From Gemmatimonadota bacterium (GTDB lineage: Bacteria > Gemmatimonadota > Gemmatimonadetes > Gemmatimonadales > Gemmatimonadaceae), in NCBI GenBank assembly GCA_028287305.1, contig JAQBPX010000014.1:62001-126000 (forward strand): a DNA stretch of 64,000 nucleotides, in the 5' to 3' direction. The position numbers and the translations under genes were made by a program. This document shows positions 11,525 to 58,885 of the stretch, in pieces; position 1 is the stretch's first letter; each line of letters opens with the position of its first letter. The notes beneath the pieces are model-generated. The model was not told the origin of the DNA and made no database searches. It was given only the letters and a program-made list of their open reading frames with translations.

Positions 11525-11636
11525 AACAGCTTGAGACACGGATTTCACGGGGCGCGCGGTTGGCGCGCCACACGGGTACTGCATCAGATCGGTGTGCCGC
11601 CGCAGGCGGCCAGTGAAATCCGTGTCGAAAGCTGTT
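11525..11636 (+). repeat. Nested inverted repeat, copy 1 (short-core form)
   Basis: Outer arms AACAGCTTGAGACACGG and its complement CCGTGTCGAAAGCTGTT enclose two side hairpins: GGCGCGC/GCGCGCC on the left, CCGCC/GGCGG on the right. The core here is only about 20 nt. It begins 19 bp after a plus-strand stop with the GCGCGCC hairpin nearest that gene. Confidence 0.85.
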
Positions 11637-11665
11637 GCCGTTGAGGCAGTTTCAGTGAAGACCAC

Positions 11666-11694
11666 GGCAGATCCTTCGCGTTGCTCAGGATGAC
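11666..11694 (-). repeat. 30-nt dispersed repeat, copy 1
   Basis: Minus-strand match to GTCATCCTGAGC..GCGAAGGATCTGCC. It sits 30 nt past copy 1 of the nested inverted repeat, the same order as at 11871, 16950, 24003 and 37789. Confidence 0.8.
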
Positions 11695-11789
11695 AACGGG
11701 CCTCGCGCGCCATCCAGGTCCATCCACCCACGACCCAAGGAAATTCCAATCATCCCGGCCGAGAGCTCGTACACGAGCGCGCAACTGCC

Positions 11790-11840
11790 GTACCCGTGTG
11801 CCGCCGCAGGCGGCCAGTGAAATCCGTGTCGAAAGCTGTT
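11790..11840 (+). repeat. Nested inverted repeat, copy 2 (3' half only)
   Basis: Only the second half is present: CCCGTGTG, the CCGCC/GGCGG hairpin and CAGTGAAATCCGTGTC. No partner arm exists upstream, so this is a truncated copy or the scar of a tandem duplication; the flanking GTTGCCGTTGAGGCA matches copy 1. Confidence 0.75.
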
Positions 11841-11870
11841 GCCGTTGAGGCACTTTCAGTGACGGCGAAC

Positions 11871-11900
11871 GGCAGATCCCTCGCTGTCGCTCAGGATGAC
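11871..11900 (-). repeat. 30-nt dispersed repeat, copy 2
   Basis: Minus-strand match to the GTCATCCTGAGC family, again just after a nested inverted repeat (11790-11840). It duplicates the arrangement at 11525-11694. Confidence 0.8.
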
Positions 11901-17161: not shown

Positions 17162-17670
17162 CGCCCCTGCGCTCGGGGCGACGGCCGATTGACGATCAAC
17201 GCCTCACTCGGCAGCCCGAAGATCGGCGGCGTGGGCACGCCGCGCAGGCCGAGGATCATGTACATCTGCCCGCGGTGATGCGCCTCGTGCTCGAACAGCG
17301 CGCGCAGCCACTTCCAGACCGGAATTTTCGCGTCGCCCGGCGTGAGGCACCGCTCCCCCATTCGCTCGTCGGTGAGCAGCGCGAACTGCGCGCGACTCTC
17401 GGCGTGCAGCGTGTCGTAATACTCGAGCGTGGCCTGCGCACCGGGCGCGAGGTTCGCGTCGTGCCCAGGATACTTGTTCGGCCGGTCGTGCACGGTCTCG
17501 GCGTACATCCAGCGCTCGATGCCGGCCAGGTGGCGCACCGAGTCGCCGAACGTGAACCTACCTGGACCCGGCAGCCACTCGAGGTCGTCCTCACCCGCCA
17601 GCAGCACGATGCGACGCGTCCGCGCGTGCACCTTGTCCAGGTAGTCGAGGAATTCCGTAACTGACGTCAT
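17152..17670 (-). CDS. DinB-family protein
   Basis: 172 residues from ATG 17670. It fits the DinB/YfiT four-helix-bundle metal-binding family: first helix EFLDYLDKVHARTRRIV, then the conserved histidine in DSVRHLAGIERWMY, and the paired histidines in FEHEAHHRGQMYMILGL. That arrangement is the usual H...HxxxH metal site. It is cytoplasmic and members act in thiol- or metal-dependent transfer reactions. The ATG overlaps the stop of the upstream membrane-protein gene (ATGA) and lies within a dispersed 30-nt repeat. Its stop is within a nested inverted repeat. Confidence 0.85.
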   Translation of the reverse strand: MTSVTEFLDYLDKVHARTRRIVLLAGEDDLEWLPGPGRFTFGDSVRHLAGIERWMYAETVHDRPNKYPGHDANLAPGAQATLEYYDTLHAESRAQFALLTDERMGERCLTPGDAKIPVWKWLRALFEHEAHHRGQMYMILGLRGVPTPPIFGLPSEALIVNRPSPRAQGRTA

Positions 17671-17697
17671 CCTGAGCGAAGCGAGGGATCTGCCGTT
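17666..17697 (+). repeat. 30-nt dispersed repeat, copy 4 (carries a start/stop overlap)
   Basis: Standard copy GTCATCCTGAGCGAAGCG..GATCTGCCGTT. On the minus strand it encodes the last residues (ADPSLRSG) and stop of the membrane-protein gene and the ATG of the DinB gene. Confidence 0.85.
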
Positions 17698-18033: not shown

Positions 18034-20523
18034 TCAGTTCCCTCCCGTGAGCGTCAACGTCGACCGGTGCTTCGTCGCCGCCTCGGCCGCCGTCTTGGGC
18101 GCGAACAGCGGCAGCAGCTCTCCCCTGCTCCACCCATCGATGCGATCGTGGTAGCGGTCGCTCGCGACGTTCCCCGACTGCCCGCCGGGATAGGTGCCCC
18201 ACGCCTTGAGCTCCGGGCCCAGGTCCACCACCATGCGCCAGCTGGAACCAATCCCGCTGCGCCCGCCACTCGGATTCAGCGTGCTCGGCCCACCCTGCAA
18301 CGACACCGGCGCCGACGCGAACGCCTTGATCGGCAGCAGGTGCTTGACGCTCAGCGTCTGGATCTTCTCCCAGCGCCATCCGTCACCCGGCTCGCCGTAC
18401 TGGTGCCGCACCGAGTCGAGCCCCGCCGCGAGCGCCGCGTCGATGATGTCGTCGCGCCGCTCCACGCGCTGCGCCGTGCGACGGTCATCCCACCACGTGT
18501 TCGACGAATCCTTCGTCAGCGTCCACAGCACCTCCTCGTCGGGCGTAGCGACGCGGCGACGCAGCGAACCGTGCGGGTCCACCGCCAGCTCATCCCACGC
18601 GCGGTCGCGCAACTCGCGCATCACCGCCTCGAACAGCACCGCGCGGGTGTTGTCGCGCGTGTACTCGCGATTCCATTCGCCGAGCAGCATCGCCGACTGT
18701 CGTGAGCGCTCGTCGTTGCTCGCCATCCCCACGCGCACGAGCAGCGGCGCGAAGCGCTCGGCCCGCTCACTCCCCGGGTCCGTCTGGAAGCGACGCATGG
18801 CGTCCACCGTGACCGATGAATCCGCGCGCAGCAGCCTGTTGATGCGCAGCGCGCGCCACGCGAAGAAGAGCCCGCCCCAGTATCCGCCCGTCGCCTTCAC
18901 GTCCACCGGCTGCTGGTTGGCGCTCGCCACGTACCCCTGGGCGGGATCTTTCGCCTGTGGCATCTGCTCGAGTGGAACGTACCCCTTCCATTCATTGGCG
19001 CTCGACGTGCCGTCGCGCAGCACGTTGCCGCTGCCGTCGCCGGCGCGTATCGGGAAGCGCCCCGTGGAACGAATCGAGATGTGCCCGCCGCGATCGGCCA
19101 CGAGCATGTTCTGCGCGGGCGCCATGTAATGCGCGCCCATCGCCGCCTGGAACTCGTCCACGTTCTTCGCGGTCGAGATCCCCTGGAACGCCGCGAGCTC
19201 GTCGCTCACTTCGTTCACCGTCCAGCGCATCGAGATCCACTCGCCGTGCTCGCGGCGCATCGGCCCGCGATGCGTGAACAGCAGCGTGTCCGTCGCGATC
19301 ACCTCGCCGAAGCGCCCCCTGTACTGCTCGATGCGCCGCTCGAGCGGGCGCCACGCGCCGTCCACCTGGTACTTCGCCGGCATCGCGTCATCATCCACCT
19401 TCTCGCGCCAGAAGTCGATGACGTCGGTCTCCGAGTTCGTGAACGTCCATGCGATGTCGCGGTTGAAGCCGATCACGATTTCGTTGCTCCCGGGAATCGT
19501 GACGCCGTAGACGTCGAGCGCGTTCGGCACCACCATGTGCGCCTCGTACCAGATGCTCGGGAGCGTGAGGTCGAGATGCGGATCACCCGCGAGCAGCGCG
19601 TGGTGGTCGGCGCTGCGCGATGGTGACACCGCCCAGTTGTTGCTCGCGAAGCCGCGCGCGCTGCTTGCGTCCAGCTCCTGCAGCTCGAGCGCCCGCTCGC
19701 GCGCCGGCATCAGCCCACGCAGCAGCGACGCGAGCGTCGCATTGTTGGTCTCGGGCGCTCCCGGCGCGACGAAGGCGATCATGTCCTCGCGCGGCGCCTT
19801 CTGCCCGTTCGGCTGGATGGGTTCGACGATCGGCGAGACGTCCGGAAAGATCGACGCCGCCGCCGCATTCCCCACGCGCGTCGCCGCCGCGGCGCGCTTC
19901 TCCTCGGGGATGATGTACGAGAGCGTCCACCCCATGCGGTTGAGCAGGTGCATCGCGTTGATCGGCGTCCACCGCTCCGGCTTCTTGCGGATCAGCCGGA
20001 ACTCGAGCGGCATGTCCTCGCGCGCCATCCCGTCGATGTATGCGTTGACGCCCTGCGAGTATTGCTCGATCGACGTCATCGTCGGCGTCCCCTTCAGCGC
20101 CTCGAGCTTGCGCTCGGCGGTGCGCGGGAGGCCGAGTCGTCGCATCTCGCGATCGAGCGGCAGCGCCGCCGCCCCCGCAACCTCGGTAAGACGCCCACTC
20201 GCCGCCATCGTCTGCAGGTACATCTGGAAGAGCCGGTCGCGCGCGACGACGTACCCCAGCGCGCGATACGCGTCCCCCGTGGTGGGGGCGAAGATGTGTG
20301 GCACGGCGCGGTCGTCGTACTCGACTTTCGTCTCGGCGCTCAGTCCCGGAATGTGCGCGCTGCTGTGGTCGGGCAGGCTCGACGTGCGACCCAGCGCCCA
20401 CACGCCGCGCGCCGGCTCGAGGAAGGGTCCGAGCGCGGGAGCGGGGCCGATTGGCTTGGAGCCTACATAGGCGCCGGCGGCGAGGACTACGGCGGCCAGG
20501 GCGGTTCGGAGGGGGGAAGGCAT
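18034..20523 (-). CDS. Penicillin acylase family N-terminal nucleophile hydrolase
   Basis: 829 residues from ATG 20523. An N-terminal hydrophobic segment (MPSPLRTALAAVVLAAGAYVG) suggests export. It follows S45 peptidase order: alpha-chain blocks VPHIFAPTTGDAYRALGYVVARDRLF and GRLTEVAG, a spacer, then the autocatalytic Ser (residue 294) starting the beta chain in ASNNWAVSP. Later blocks are LAGDPHLDLTLPSIWYEAH, IGFNRDIAWTFTN, ASANQQPV and a C-terminal GYWGGLFFAWRALRI segment. It would be cleaved in the periplasm to alpha and beta chains and hydrolyse an amide such as an acyl-homoserine lactone or beta-lactam side chain. The substrate is unknown. Confidence 0.93.
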   Translation of the reverse strand: MPSPLRTALAAVVLAAGAYVGSKPIGPAPALGPFLEPARGVWALGRTSSLPDHSSAHIPGLSAETKVEYDDRAVPHIFAPTTGDAYRALGYVVARDRLFQMYLQTMAASGRLTEVAGAAALPLDREMRRLGLPRTAERKLEALKGTPTMTSIEQYSQGVNAYIDGMAREDMPLEFRLIRKKPERWTPINAMHLLNRMGWTLSYIIPEEKRAAAATRVGNAAAASIFPDVSPIVEPIQPNGQKAPREDMIAFVAPGAPETNNATLASLLRGLMPARERALELQELDASSARGFASNNWAVSPSRSADHHALLAGDPHLDLTLPSIWYEAHMVVPNALDVYGVTIPGSNEIVIGFNRDIAWTFTNSETDVIDFWREKVDDDAMPAKYQVDGAWRPLERRIEQYRGRFGEVIATDTLLFTHRGPMRREHGEWISMRWTVNEVSDELAAFQGISTAKNVDEFQAAMGAHYMAPAQNMLVADRGGHISIRSTGRFPIRAGDGSGNVLRDGTSSANEWKGYVPLEQMPQAKDPAQGYVASANQQPVDVKATGGYWGGLFFAWRALRINRLLRADSSVTVDAMRRFQTDPGSERAERFAPLLVRVGMASNDERSRQSAMLLGEWNREYTRDNTRAVLFEAVMRELRDRAWDELAVDPHGSLRRRVATPDEEVLWTLTKDSSNTWWDDRRTAQRVERRDDIIDAALAAGLDSVRHQYGEPGDGWRWEKIQTLSVKHLLPIKAFASAPVSLQGGPSTLNPSGGRSGIGSSWRMVVDLGPELKAWGTYPGGQSGNVASDRYHDRIDGWSRGELLPLFAPKTAAEAATKHRSTLTLTGGN

Positions 20524-20570
20524 TGGGGGCAAAGGTGGGCCTCGGAGAGAGGGCGTGCAACGGCGGGGCT

Positions 20571-20601
20571 GTCATCCTGGGCGCAGCGAGGGATCTGCCG
20601 T
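20571..20601 (+). repeat. 30-nt dispersed repeat, copy 5
   Basis: GTCATCCTGGGCGCAGCG..GATCTGCCGT, 47 bp upstream of the penicillin acylase start and next to the nested repeat region at 20623-21060. Confidence 0.8.
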
Positions 20602-20622
20602 CGTAGTCTGCCGCTCTATCGT

Positions 20623-21060
20623 TCCGGCAGGACGGTGGTCTGTGGTCTGTGGCTCGGACAGGATGCAGTAGGCGGGCGCCTGCAGGCGCCCGCCTTCGTC
20701 ATTTGTTCGCGGTCCACATGTTCGAGGGCGCGGCGTGCATGCCGATACCCCGGGTACGCTTGCCAGAAGCCTGAAGCCGGAAGCTCGAGCACCGACAAGG
20801 AAAGCGCTGCGCGCTTCGTCATGCGTTCGCCGTGAACATGTCCACGGATAACGAGGCGGCGGCCGCAGGCCGCCGCGTACCGCATCAGTGTTCGAGCTTC
20901 AGGCGCCAGGCTTCAGGCAACCCGAACTCGGTATCGGCCAGCCGACCGCGAACTCGAAACGATCAACACAAAACCCAACGACAAAGGCGGGCGCCCACAG
21001 GCGCCCGCCTTCCGCATCATGTCCGGGCCACAGACCACAGGCCACAGACCTGCAGGACCG
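20623..21060. repeat. Large imperfect inverted-repeat element with internal palindromes
   Basis: A 438-nt stretch with no coding sign. Its ends (20623-20694 and 20986-21060) are imperfect inverted copies of each other; each carries a GC-rich palindrome (20671-20694 is a perfect 24-bp palindrome around CTGCAG; 20986-21009 is its near copy). Inside are two direct copies of TTCGTCATN2GTTCGC..ACATGT (about 20695 and 20815), a further palindrome at 20851-20876, and an inverted pair around GCCTGAAGCCGGAAGCTCGAG (20769-20791 / 20889-20918). With the flanking 30-nt repeats it fills the 576-bp gap between penicillin acylase and the gene at 21100. Confidence 0.7.
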
Positions 21061-21086
21061 ATAAAGGGGCCAACCACAACGACCAA

Positions 21087-21112
21087 CCCCTCGCGCCGCT
21101 CAGGATGACGGC
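21087..21112 (-). repeat. 30-nt dispersed repeat, copy 6
   Basis: Minus-strand copy (TCGCGCCGCTCAGGATGACG on plus). It supplies the TGA stop and the last residues of the gene at 21100-21489. Confidence 0.7.
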
Positions 21113-21489
21113 ACTCCCTCATACCCCACCCCCTCCAGCGCCCCCGCCCCGCTCACCGCCCACCCCGCACCCTCGACAGCCAGCACCGTCCCATCCCCGA
21201 ACTCCACCGACAGCCGCCTTTCCACAGTCAACACAGTAACACTCCGCATCTCCGCCCCCACAAAGCCCAACAAGGCCGCCAACGTCTCCGGCCTCCCCGC
21301 CTCGATCGTCCGCGAGCCCCCCGTCACCGTGCGCAGCGAAGCCGCCCCCGAAACCAGAACCTCGAGCGAAGAATCCAGAGACCACGTCTGGATCCGGAAG
21401 TTCCGCCGCTCCACCACCAGCCCCGAGATGCGATGATCGAGCAGCACCCAGTGGTGCTCTCCCTCCGACTCGATCAGCTGCGCGCGCAC
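21100..21489 (-). CDS. Hypothetical protein downstream of diguanylate cyclase
   Basis: 129 residues beginning MRAQLIESEGEHHWVLLDHR. Alternating strands (ISGLVVERRNFRIQTWSLD, SLEVLVSGAASLRT, SVTVLTVERRLSVEFGDG, LAVEGAGWAV) suggest an all-beta fold similar to small DUF6188-type proteins, but I would not assign that family firmly. It lies 11 bp after the GGDEF gene on the same strand. The last residues and the stop come from a dispersed 30-nt repeat, so the C-terminus is probably not ancestral. Confidence 0.6.
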   Translation of the reverse strand: MRAQLIESEGEHHWVLLDHRISGLVVERRNFRIQTWSLDSSLEVLVSGAASLRTVTGGSRTIEAGRPETLAALLGFVGAEMRSVTVLTVERRLSVEFGDGTVLAVEGAGWAVSGAGALEGVGYEGVPSS

Positions 21490-23996: not shown

Positions 23997-24002
23997 CTTG
24001 CA

Positions 24003-24034
24003 GTCATCCTGAGCGCAGCGAGGGATCTGCCGTT
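24003..24034 (+). repeat. 30-nt dispersed repeat, copy 7
   Basis: GTCATCCTGAGCGCAGCG..GGATCTGCCGTTG, immediately after a partial second copy (GTCATCCTGA at 23987-23996) that forms the kinase stop, and 25 nt before nested inverted repeat copy 4. Confidence 0.85.
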
Positions 24035-24058
24035 GCCGTCACTGAAACGACCAAACAG

Positions 24059-24235
24059 CAACTGCTTTCGACACGGATTCCACTGGCCGCCTGCGGCGGC
24101 TCACCGATACGGCGCTCGTGGCAGCAAAAGCTTCATCCTGCGGGGCGAGGATGACTTTTTCTTTTTACGTGGATGGCTGGACCCGTGTGGCGCGCCGAAG
24201 GCGCGCCCCGTGAAATCCGTGTCTCAATGCAGTTG
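24059..24235 (-). repeat. Nested inverted repeat, copy 4 (full length)
   Basis: Same plan as copy 3: outer arms, CCGCC/GGCGG and GCGCGCC/GGCGCGC side hairpins, inner stem weakened by changes (CACCGATAC opposite ACCCGTGTG). The core has CATCC..GGATG followed by T-rich sequence (about 24135-24169), terminator-like on the plus strand. It ends 3 bp before the minus-strand DUF1569 stop, between convergent genes. Confidence 0.9.
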
Positions 24236-24238
24236 CCG

Positions 24239-29883: not shown

Positions 29884-30081
29884 TGCGGCTAGCGGCTAGC
29901 GGTTGCCTGCCACTGCGGCGACTGCGGAACGGAGCAGAGGGGCGGGGTAGTGCGGCCACTGCAGCTAGCGGCCGAATGCGCCGCGGACCAACTAGCCGCT
30001 AGCCGCAGTGGCCGACCTGGCCGCGGTGAGCCGCTGTCGAGCCGCCGCTGCAGTTGTCAGTCCCGCTAGCCGCTAGCCGCA
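29884..30081. repeat. CTAGCCGC-rich element with perfect terminal inverted repeats
   Basis: The two ends are perfect inverted copies (GCGGCTAGCGGCTAGCGG and its complement, about 29886 and 30064), and further GCTAGCGGC units lie inside (29971, 29992). There is no reading frame. It fills most of the 339-bp gap between the adaptor start and the protease stop. A GCGGCTAGCG unit also occurs at 41055. Its origin is unknown. Confidence 0.65.
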
Positions 30082-31652: not shown

Positions 31653-31712
31653 GCTTCCCCAACTAGGAAGAAGCGCGCCAAGGGGTTCTCTCGGCGGGCA
31701 CTGGAAAAAACC

Positions 31713-31831
31713 CAACTGCAACAGACTTGAGCCACGGGTTTCACTGCGCCGCTGCGCGGCGAACACCGTTAAAGCTCTTGCCAGCAGTGTCGCGGCGAAG
31801 CCGCCCGTGTAACCCGTGGCAAAGGCAGTTG
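31713..31831 (-). repeat. Nested inverted repeat, copy 5 (divergent)
   Basis: Outer arms CAACTGCAACAGACTTGAG..GGGTTTCAC and TAACCCGTGGCAAAGGCAGTTG, with side hairpins GCCGC/GCGGC and CGCGGC/GCCGC. The sequence differs from copies 3/4/6/7 but compensating changes keep the arms paired. It lies within the minus-strand operon between tmk and the protease. Confidence 0.7.
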
Positions 31832-31857
31832 CTTTTTGGTTTTTTCAGTGCCCGGCG

Positions 31858-37820: not shown

Positions 37821-37849
37821 GCCCCACAGCACTGAAACTGCCTTAACTG

Positions 37850-38022
37850 CAACTGCCTTAGACACGGATTTCACTGGCCGCCTGCGGCGGCACACGGGTA
37901 CGGCGATCGTGGCAGCAAAAGCTTCACTTGCTGGGCCACAATGATTTTTCCTTTTTGTGGATGGTTAGATCAGTGTGGCGCGCCGCAGGCGCGCCCCGTG
38001 AAATCCGTGTCACAAGCAGTTG
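37850..38022 (-). repeat. Nested inverted repeat, copy 6 (full length)
   Basis: Outer arms CAACTGCCTTAGACACGG and CCGTGTCACAAGCAGTTG; CCGCC/GGCGG and GCGCGCC/GGCGCGC side hairpins; inner stem CACACGGGTAC partly decayed on the right. The core holds GTGGCAGCAA..TTGCTGGGCCAC and a T-rich run. It ends 3 bp before the minus-strand stop at 38026; convergent neighbours. Confidence 0.9.
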
Positions 38023-38025
38023 CAG

Positions 38026-39348
38026 TTACTGCCCCATCCCTGCCCCACTCCGGAACGGGCGCACGCGCAGGAACACCATCGCGCCCAACGGCGTGCGCGA
38101 TCCATACGCCGAGACCAGTGCCTGCGGCACCATGTCAACGGTGCCCATCGCGCCGATGCCGAGCGTCCCCTTGCCGAAGCGCGCCAGCTCCCGGATCACG
38201 CCGAGCGAGGCAGCGCCCACGTCGTAGGTCGCATCCCCGGCCACCGACAGGTCTTCCCCGCTCTTCTGCACCCACTCGGCCCTCGTGAACACCGTGTTGC
38301 GCGCATCCAGCACCGCTTCGCTCTCACCAAGCAGCGAGTGCGACATCCCGGGTTGCGTCGAGTGAGTGTTGGCTCCCCAGATCAGCGCCGACGACCACTG
38401 TCCCTGCTCACCTATCGCGCGCCCATAGAGTGCCGACGCCGTGACGCGATGCATGGACTCGCCTGGATTGAGCGCCTCCGGGCTCTTCAGGAATCCATAC
38501 CCACCCGTGAAGCTCCAGTTCGCCGACGGATTGTACGTCGCGCGCCCCGAGTACGAGTCGAGCCTGATGGGATCGAAGTTCCACCGGTGCTGGTCCGGCT
38601 CGCGCCCGTTGAACACCGACCCCTCGAGCTTGAACGTGTGCGTGAACAGTCCCGCGCTGAGCACGCCGAAGGAGATGTGCGTCGCGTCCTGCCAGTGATG
38701 CGTGATCGGCGCCGCGGGATTGTCCATCGCGCTCGGCCGGTGCATGAACGCCACGGGGCCGAGTGCGGGCTCGCCTGAGGGTGCCGCGTAGAGCATGACG
38801 CCAAGCGAGCTGGTGATCGGTCGCTCGTAGAGCGCGCTCAGCTCCATGAAGAAGTCGTGCGGGTGCTGGCGGTCGTGGAGTGGCTGGCCGTCGTACGCCT
38901 CCCCCGATTGCAGCAGGAGCGGATATCCCTTCGGCGTGACGGTCAGCGCGTCGAGGCTGAGCATGGTGCGCGCCTGCACGCGTCCACCCGCGAGCGCGTG
39001 CGACGCCATGAGCATCATCCAGTTGAGCGAACCCACCTGGCTGTCGCCGCGCGGCCCGCCCTGATGGTCGTACTGCAGGAACGCGAAGCCGTGGCCCGTG
39101 ACGTCCCAACCCTTCGGCGCGTGGAAGTAGAGCGACGGAATCGGCGCGGCGTCGGGCACCCACGTCGTGCCGGAGCCCATGCGATCCATGGAAACGCCGA
39201 GTGGGTCCGGCGCCTGCATCCGCATGCCGGACATGTCGCCCATGCCGGGCATGTCCTTCATTGACGTATCCTGCTGCGCGCGCGCCGGGCGAATGGGCGC
39301 CAGGGGCACGAGCGCGACGAGCGCGATCGTGATCGATCGAAACTTCAT
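38026..39348 (-). CDS. Outer-membrane-like protein with Met-rich N-terminus
   Basis: 440 residues. The signal peptide (MKFRSITIALVALVPLAPIRPARA) is followed by a methionine-rich segment (MKDMPGMGDMSGMRM) of the sort that binds copper or silver. The remainder is rich in aromatic beta strands (GFAFLQYDHQGGPRG, NWSFTGGYGFLKSPEAL, AMVFLRVRPF), consistent with an outer-membrane beta barrel. HDRQHPHDFFMEL and ITHHWQDATHISFG add histidines. It follows the small Cys/Met/His protein gene (77 bp away) on the same strand. A role in metal efflux or handling is inferred, not shown. Confidence 0.7.
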   Translation of the reverse strand: MKFRSITIALVALVPLAPIRPARAQQDTSMKDMPGMGDMSGMRMQAPDPLGVSMDRMGSGTTWVPDAAPIPSLYFHAPKGWDVTGHGFAFLQYDHQGGPRGDSQVGSLNWMMLMASHALAGGRVQARTMLSLDALTVTPKGYPLLLQSGEAYDGQPLHDRQHPHDFFMELSALYERPITSSLGVMLYAAPSGEPALGPVAFMHRPSAMDNPAAPITHHWQDATHISFGVLSAGLFTHTFKLEGSVFNGREPDQHRWNFDPIRLDSYSGRATYNPSANWSFTGGYGFLKSPEALNPGESMHRVTASALYGRAIGEQGQWSSALIWGANTHSTQPGMSHSLLGESEAVLDARNTVFTRAEWVQKSGEDLSVAGDATYDVGAASLGVIRELARFGKGTLGIGAMGTVDMVPQALVSAYGSRTPLGAMVFLRVRPFRSGAGMGQ

Positions 39349-58713: not shown

Positions 58714-58885
58714 CAACTGCTTGAGACACGGATTTCACGGGCCGCCTGTGGCGGCACACGGGTACGGCGATAGTGGCAACAAGAGCTTCGCCCTGACCGC
58801 CCGGACTGACTTTTCTGATTCCTCAATGCCCTACCCGTGTGTCGCGCCCAAGGCGCGACCAGTGAAATCCGTGTCTCAAGCAGTT
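58714..58885 (-). repeat. Nested inverted repeat, copy 7 (full length)
   Basis: Outer arms CAACTGCTTGAGACACGG and CCGTGTCTCAAGCAGTT pair over more than 20 bp; side hairpins CCGCC/GGCGG and GCGC/GCGC; inner stem CACACGGGTA/TACCCGTGTG. Core about 75 nt. It ends 4 bp before the metallophosphoesterase stop, GCGCGC-type hairpin side nearest. No 30-nt repeat accompanies it. Confidence 0.9.

Follow-up and report, generated by a model that had tools for sequence, protein, structure and literature searches.

The 545-nt sequence at positions 20568–21112 of the window (the whole 64,000-nt stretch of DNA analysed here) is a composite, REP-like extragenic fold-back element, a member of a multicopy family whose copies lie mostly at the 3' ends of genes. 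We propose, with a probability that we would put at roughly 45%, that these elements are modular fold-backs of gene ends which have been spread and remodelled mainly by recombination, and which perhaps act as a two-way barrier at the ends of transcripts.

Inverted-repeat analysis identified the element as a single long imperfect palindrome (I1), the arms of which (20568–20703 and 20977–21112) are 136 nt each and complementary at 80%. The earlier note had described 438 nt of this sequence (20623–21060) as a fold-back element with inverted ends of approximately 72 nt; the element is real and these ends fall inside the 136-nt arms, but the element extends some 55 nt beyond the stated borders in either direction. 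Folding of the region 20560–21120 as DNA gave −204.5 kcal/mol (z = −15.2), and folding as RNA gave a z of −18.0, with none of 100 shuffled sequences equalling the native fold in either case.

The window copy consists of two four-way-junction (cruciform) modules, the inner one being placed within the central hairpin of the outer one, and both types of module are also found singly elsewhere in the genome. The outer module is capped on the left by a REP-like motif of the TGTCATCCTGRGCGCAGCGARGGATCTGC type (20568–20598, + strand), which is found alone too, and on the right by an inverted REP-like motif (21087–21112, − strand), whose CCTGA provides a neighbouring ORF with its TGA stop. Inside the caps are an outer stem in which the 7-nt word GGTCTGT is repeated (20637–20652, + strand, with its complementary arm at 21035–21050, − strand; I6) and two lateral hairpins, the first of which (20671–20694; I4 and D1) is a perfect GC-rich palindrome, self-complementary at 24 of 24 nt, while its partner (20984–21011; I8 and D1) is self-complementary at 24 of 28. 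The inner module has a stem made of the words GAAGCCT and GAAGCCG, with GAAGCTC at its end (20760–20786, + strand, with its complementary arm at 20895–20920, − strand; I2), and a core at 20780–20897, the dispersed module for which we built a covariance model (R1), with a small hairpin at 20802–20816 and a GC-rich hairpin at 20856–20876. The inverted ends, the 24-nt GC-rich palindromes and the small direct and inverted words of the interior which had been seen in the letters are all present.

Smaller relatives of the element follow one building plan, in which a closing stem of a 7–8-nt word (GGCCCGCA, GGTCTGT or GAAGCCT), or a REP-like cap, opens into a junction from which a central stem (CTTCGTCAT..ATGACGAAG) and two lateral hairpins, both GC-rich, branch off. 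This layout, with its word stems and its nested or shared modules, fits the suggestion of the earlier note that the element was built by repeated copying of words, but does not demonstrate this as the origin of the window copy. No transposase lies inside, as was claimed; the ORFs that run through the element in the ORF list overlap the palindrome and are not gene-like. No Rfam RNA family matched the window at its gathering score.

The window copy occupies a co-directional gap. It is faced by the 5' end of a gene for a penicillin amidase family protein (18034–20523, − strand; PF01804, E = 2.5e-186), and its right end overlaps the 3' end of the upstream ORF (21100–21489, − strand), which has its stop codon within the element and a weak similarity to DUF6188 (22.6 bits against a cut-off of 27.1), and which was called in some runs of our home-made gene finder, based on codon scores, and missed in one. 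We examined the context of 31 other copies (window copy excluded), whose borders were set by hand from BLAST matches and folds: 20 lie in convergent gaps and ten in tandem gaps, no copy lies in a divergent gap, and one is unresolved, so that two thirds of the resolved copies sit between convergent genes. Twenty-eight of the 31, as counted by eye, are no more than 25 nt from the 3' end of a called gene, the exceptions being L039, L048 and L058. Donation of a stop codon by the end motif was rejected as a general rule, as it was seen for just three motif copies out of 51, one of them in the window, and TAACTGC was rejected as a border word because it is not enriched (2 of 428 stops).

A search of the element's own genome (39 contigs, 4.37 Mb), in which 40 of 157 candidates were scored, yielded 97 matches, many of them being the two strands of one place. 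Genome search, alignment and junction model all bear out a fold-back element that is multicopy rather than unique in its genome. Four copies are full length, namely that in the window and those at C29:9886, C4:100054 and C4:595826, the remaining copies being partial. These four have both ends in common, lie in unrelated flanks and are 82–89% identical to each other, whereas one half of the window copy is 71% like the other, and the halves within single copies of this family are 71–78% alike. Because the halves (71%) are less alike than the copies, the 545-nt unit must have been copied whole after the palindrome had formed. Growth in place, in which fold-back synthesis or a template switch would put a copy of a word into each of the arms, could explain why tandem-word stems vary from site to site and yet are mirrored in the two arms, but the lower likeness of halves than of whole copies argues against it; since the halves of one copy differ more than whole copies do, the arms are not now being corrected against each other. 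We regard such an origin as highly improbable.

The pattern of the end motif (GTCATYCYGAGCGNAGCGARGRATCT) has 56 matches in the genome, within elements or alone, and in the window lone REP-like end motifs lie outside the 545-nt element at 11869–11900, 17666–17696 and 24000–24040. The outer module occurs without the inner one at L047 and L053–L055, and inner-type cores occur on other stems at L048, L050, L056–L058 and L061. At L107:863–1012 the junction sequence of the inner core (GAGCACTGACAGGGAAGG) is combined with a GGGCTTT stem word and a different hairpin, a case of module exchange. The covariance model of the inner junction, built from 16 inner cores, produced 61 hits across the genome when 150 of 7261 candidates were scored. 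Most sites were hit on both strands, and the hits correspond to 32–33 non-overlapping sites; 16 of these sites had built the model and outer-type junctions are included among them. Of the pair cells in the 16 cores, 91.2% are paired, and two-sided changes are not commoner than in shuffled sequences. The copies of the inner core decay and do not covary, and covariation in the core, which is not above that of shuffles, gives no sign of selection on structure since dispersal.

These results bear on an explanation in which the elements are bidirectional terminators or stabilisers of 3' RNA ends, selected by the host, with a sequence that drifts in place and a dispersal that is incidental. Placement behind stop codons would be expected of such structures, as would the presence of some hairpin at all five orthologous sites compared between two sister species (see below). 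Nevertheless, the kinship of whole 545-nt copies at unrelated loci needs copying, compensatory changes are not in excess in the core, and a scan of 20400–21300, which covered the site of the window copy only, found no U-tract terminator. We consider this explanation quite improbable.

Beyond its own genome the layout recurs with other sequence. A search of relatives, of the kind that the earlier note had suggested, matched the end motif of approximately 30 nt in 5 of 39, but the 545-nt sequence in none of them, and a pattern search detected the end motif in 11 of 59 genomes of the family, which were drawn from a larger group. The junction model gave five weak hits in the 58 other family genomes, one in each of five genomes, under stricter filters which lose weak matches. 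Plasmids and phages gave no match to the element, in collections from which records near the window's genome are possibly missing. Five single exact-pattern hits in contigs of GTDB species (Verrucomicrobiales, Methylococcaceae, Bacteroidetes, Nitrosomonas and one further bacterium) were rejected and are read as chance, because the rest of the element is missing there. Hairpins of relatives have a similar layout with different short words; for example, L074 (in G072) and L176 (in G041) have a word stem and two lateral GC hairpins, in a sequence different from that of the window element.

Intergenic inverted repeats were also sought without bias, by scanning samples of the own genome (464 kb) and of three others (376 kb of G068, 400 kb of G021 and 320 kb of G015, the 952-base L159 being left out of the last). 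At a score of 26 the scan gave 143 intergenic repeats, as opposed to 391 that lay for the most part within called genes, and the analysis used only the 89 intergenic repeats with a score of at least 32 (27 in the own genome, 20 in G068, 14 in G021 and 28 in G015). Fifty-five of these 89 pooled repeats lie no more than 25 nt from a gene 3' end, against 8.5 upon random placement (maximum 17 in 500 runs), an expectation which is lowered because random placement favours long gaps; for gene 5' ends the corresponding number is 12 of 89, against 12.1 upon random placement. Their contexts are convergent in 24 cases, tandem in 51, divergent in nine and unresolved in five, where the samples contain 172 convergent, 913 tandem and 177 divergent called gene pairs (76, 394 and 168, respectively, when gaps shorter than 60 nt are excluded); in G015 only 2 of 28 repeats are convergent. 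Some of the stems consist of tandem words, which differ by genome, with GGGAGAC and GAAGACGA in G068 and GAGGGCAG, GCTCCAC and GCTGCGTG in G015. Significant short-word periodicity was found in 20 of 87 fold-back arms (two of the 89 were too short) and in 39 of 600 control 45-mers, and in none of the 14 arms of G021. As only 20 of 87 arms are significantly periodic, stems of repeated words make up the smaller part of this unbiased sample.

Other fold-backs were observed alongside. The window holds a second family (11525–11840, 24058–24236, 37844–38028 and 58715–58885, with related words at 31692–31857), whose stem is AACTGC/AACAGC..GACACGGATTTCAC; GGCCGCCTGCGGCGGC and GGCGCGCC..GGCGCGCC are examples of its lateral hairpins, and ACACGGGTACGG is often the central stem. 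Its layout is similar to that of the 545-nt element and its sequence is another. A long hairpin with the tandem stem word GCGGCTA lies in a co-directional gene gap at 29884–30081 of the window, and a 414-nt fold-back with tandem words of the ACGGCGGGACG type lies in such a gap in G015 (L164:2219–2632). Word arrays of GACGAGA/GTCTTCTC are highly multicopy in G041, where they occupy several dozen places, often on both strands. In G046 the end motif occurs at several sites in inverted pairs approximately 100 nt apart, in the manner of REPINs, and that genome gave no Y1_Tnp match.

Orthologous sites could be compared in other genera, as no second species of the window genus was among the genomes searched. 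Between G068 and G041, which belong to one genus, five sites were comparable (a sixth, L133:17866, lies at a contig end and was left out), and at all five both species have a hairpin of some kind: one with an inverted interior, one with another interior and three with another structure. The inversion is that at the rplL 3' end (the gene for ribosomal protein L7/L12, as identified by Pfam), where both species have GGAGACG-type stems and the interiors align with a score of 34 in reverse and 16 in forward orientation, values which were reached by 0 and 70 of 2000 shuffles, respectively. At L133:11267 the words are identical and the interior differs. At L130:4733, where both flanks are conserved, the structure is a GACGAGAG hairpin in G068 and a GGGAGACG cruciform in G041, and at L124:13424 and L127:4497, where one flank is conserved, the hairpin of G041 is different and weaker (scores 23 and 31). 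At their orthologous sites the two sister species keep a hairpin, while its interior flips or its words are exchanged.

The usual agent of REP dispersal is a Y1/RAYT transposase. Our transposase search was limited to this family (Y1_Tnp), and gave no hits in the own genome, while five of 14 control genomes gave matches to the family in the same search. Across the 59 family genomes Y1_Tnp is present in 14, and among the 11 that carry the end motif only in G014 and G043. RAYT was rejected as the spreading agent, being missing from the own genome and not associated with the motif across the family. Target-site duplications had been proposed at 20622 and 21061, which is inapplicable because those positions are not element ends; in the flanks of five copies bounded by end motifs, no consistent duplication was evident by eye. 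Terminal inverted repeats, a feature of MITEs, are present in the element. A non-autonomous transposon (a MITE, or one that is REPIN-like) which some transposase with a preference for transcript ends or hairpins moves in trans would account for the full-length copies that have both ends in common but lie in unrelated flanks, for the nesting of one module in another, and for L146:2550 of G021, an element (score 73) with no comparable counterpart in its congener G063 (largest score 27; a second site, L146:19420, was not comparable and was left out). Against it speak the distribution of Y1_Tnp, the lack of an evident target duplication in the five copies inspected and the different elements that the same sites hold in sister species, and we consider it possible but somewhat unlikely.

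We favour instead remodelling by recombination. Copies would be spread and altered mainly through recombination or gene conversion between word-repeat stems which are common to many sites: recombination between inverted stems would flip the interior, and exchange with another copy would replace or nest it. We infer this because such events would be expected to leave stem words in common between sites, to invert interiors, to swap occupants and to nest modules, as is seen here. The position of the hairpin at the transcript end suggests that it probably acts as a barrier in both directions, for definition or protection of 3' ends, so that a site could tolerate many different fold-back sequences. 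A bolder reading, which we hold to be distinctly unlikely, is that gene 3' ends in this bacterial family are standing docking sites where a large hairpin is needed, its words are replaceable, and fold-back cassettes are inverted, swapped or nested without a transposase, through recombination between the short-word stems that they share; if true, each lineage would come to have words of its own on a four-way-junction layout that is retained. Dispersal of the REP type is often credited to a dedicated transposase, and the large modular palindrome family described here thrives in a genome that lacks the known one. If this is confirmed, conservation of structure at gene ends would be separable from conservation of sequence, and both the spread of a repeat family without a dedicated transposase and the way in which transcript ends are marked in the convergent gene gaps of such GC-rich bacteria would become testable.

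Being multicopy, palindromic, extragenic and near 3' ends, the element is a REP in the broad sense. Its end motif presumably resembles the CGTC-tagged REP superfamily, to judge by the pattern CGTCAT..ATCC. The double-hairpin elements of mitochondria are also dispersed, multi-hairpin and gene-free, and are organelle elements smaller than that of the window. Our literature search, in which coverage of subscription journals was poor, found no publication that treats these words or elements for this group, a result from which we do not claim absence from print, and no description either of a nested four-way-junction build or of flipping or replacement at fixed gene ends. In Geobacter metallireducens, paired tandem octa- and heptanucleotide repeats lie on opposite strands of one locus, with tens of sequences per class, and were proposed by the authors to be IHF/HU binding sites (PMC2700814). 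These share with our stems the use of tandem 7–8-nt words; the words and the bacterial group are others, and nested junctions or flipping are not described in the accessible part of that report (PMC2700814). REPINs have two inverted REP-type ends which pair as one hairpin and are dispersed as non-coding copies, as is the case here, but according to the available portion of their description they are associated with a RAYT, have a short spacer and show compensatory changes (PMC3116915), whereas the genome of our element has no RAYT, the full copies have approximately 480 nt of modular sequence between their end motifs, and such changes are not in excess in the core. CGTC-tagged REPs are, from the available text, short palindromes of 20–40 nt which occur in inverted pairs near 3' ends, mostly in convergent or co-directional gaps, and which, according to the authors, apparently have no dedicated transposase (PMC3733652); they resemble our element in placement, but here the motif merely caps a 545-nt composite built of two nested junctions.
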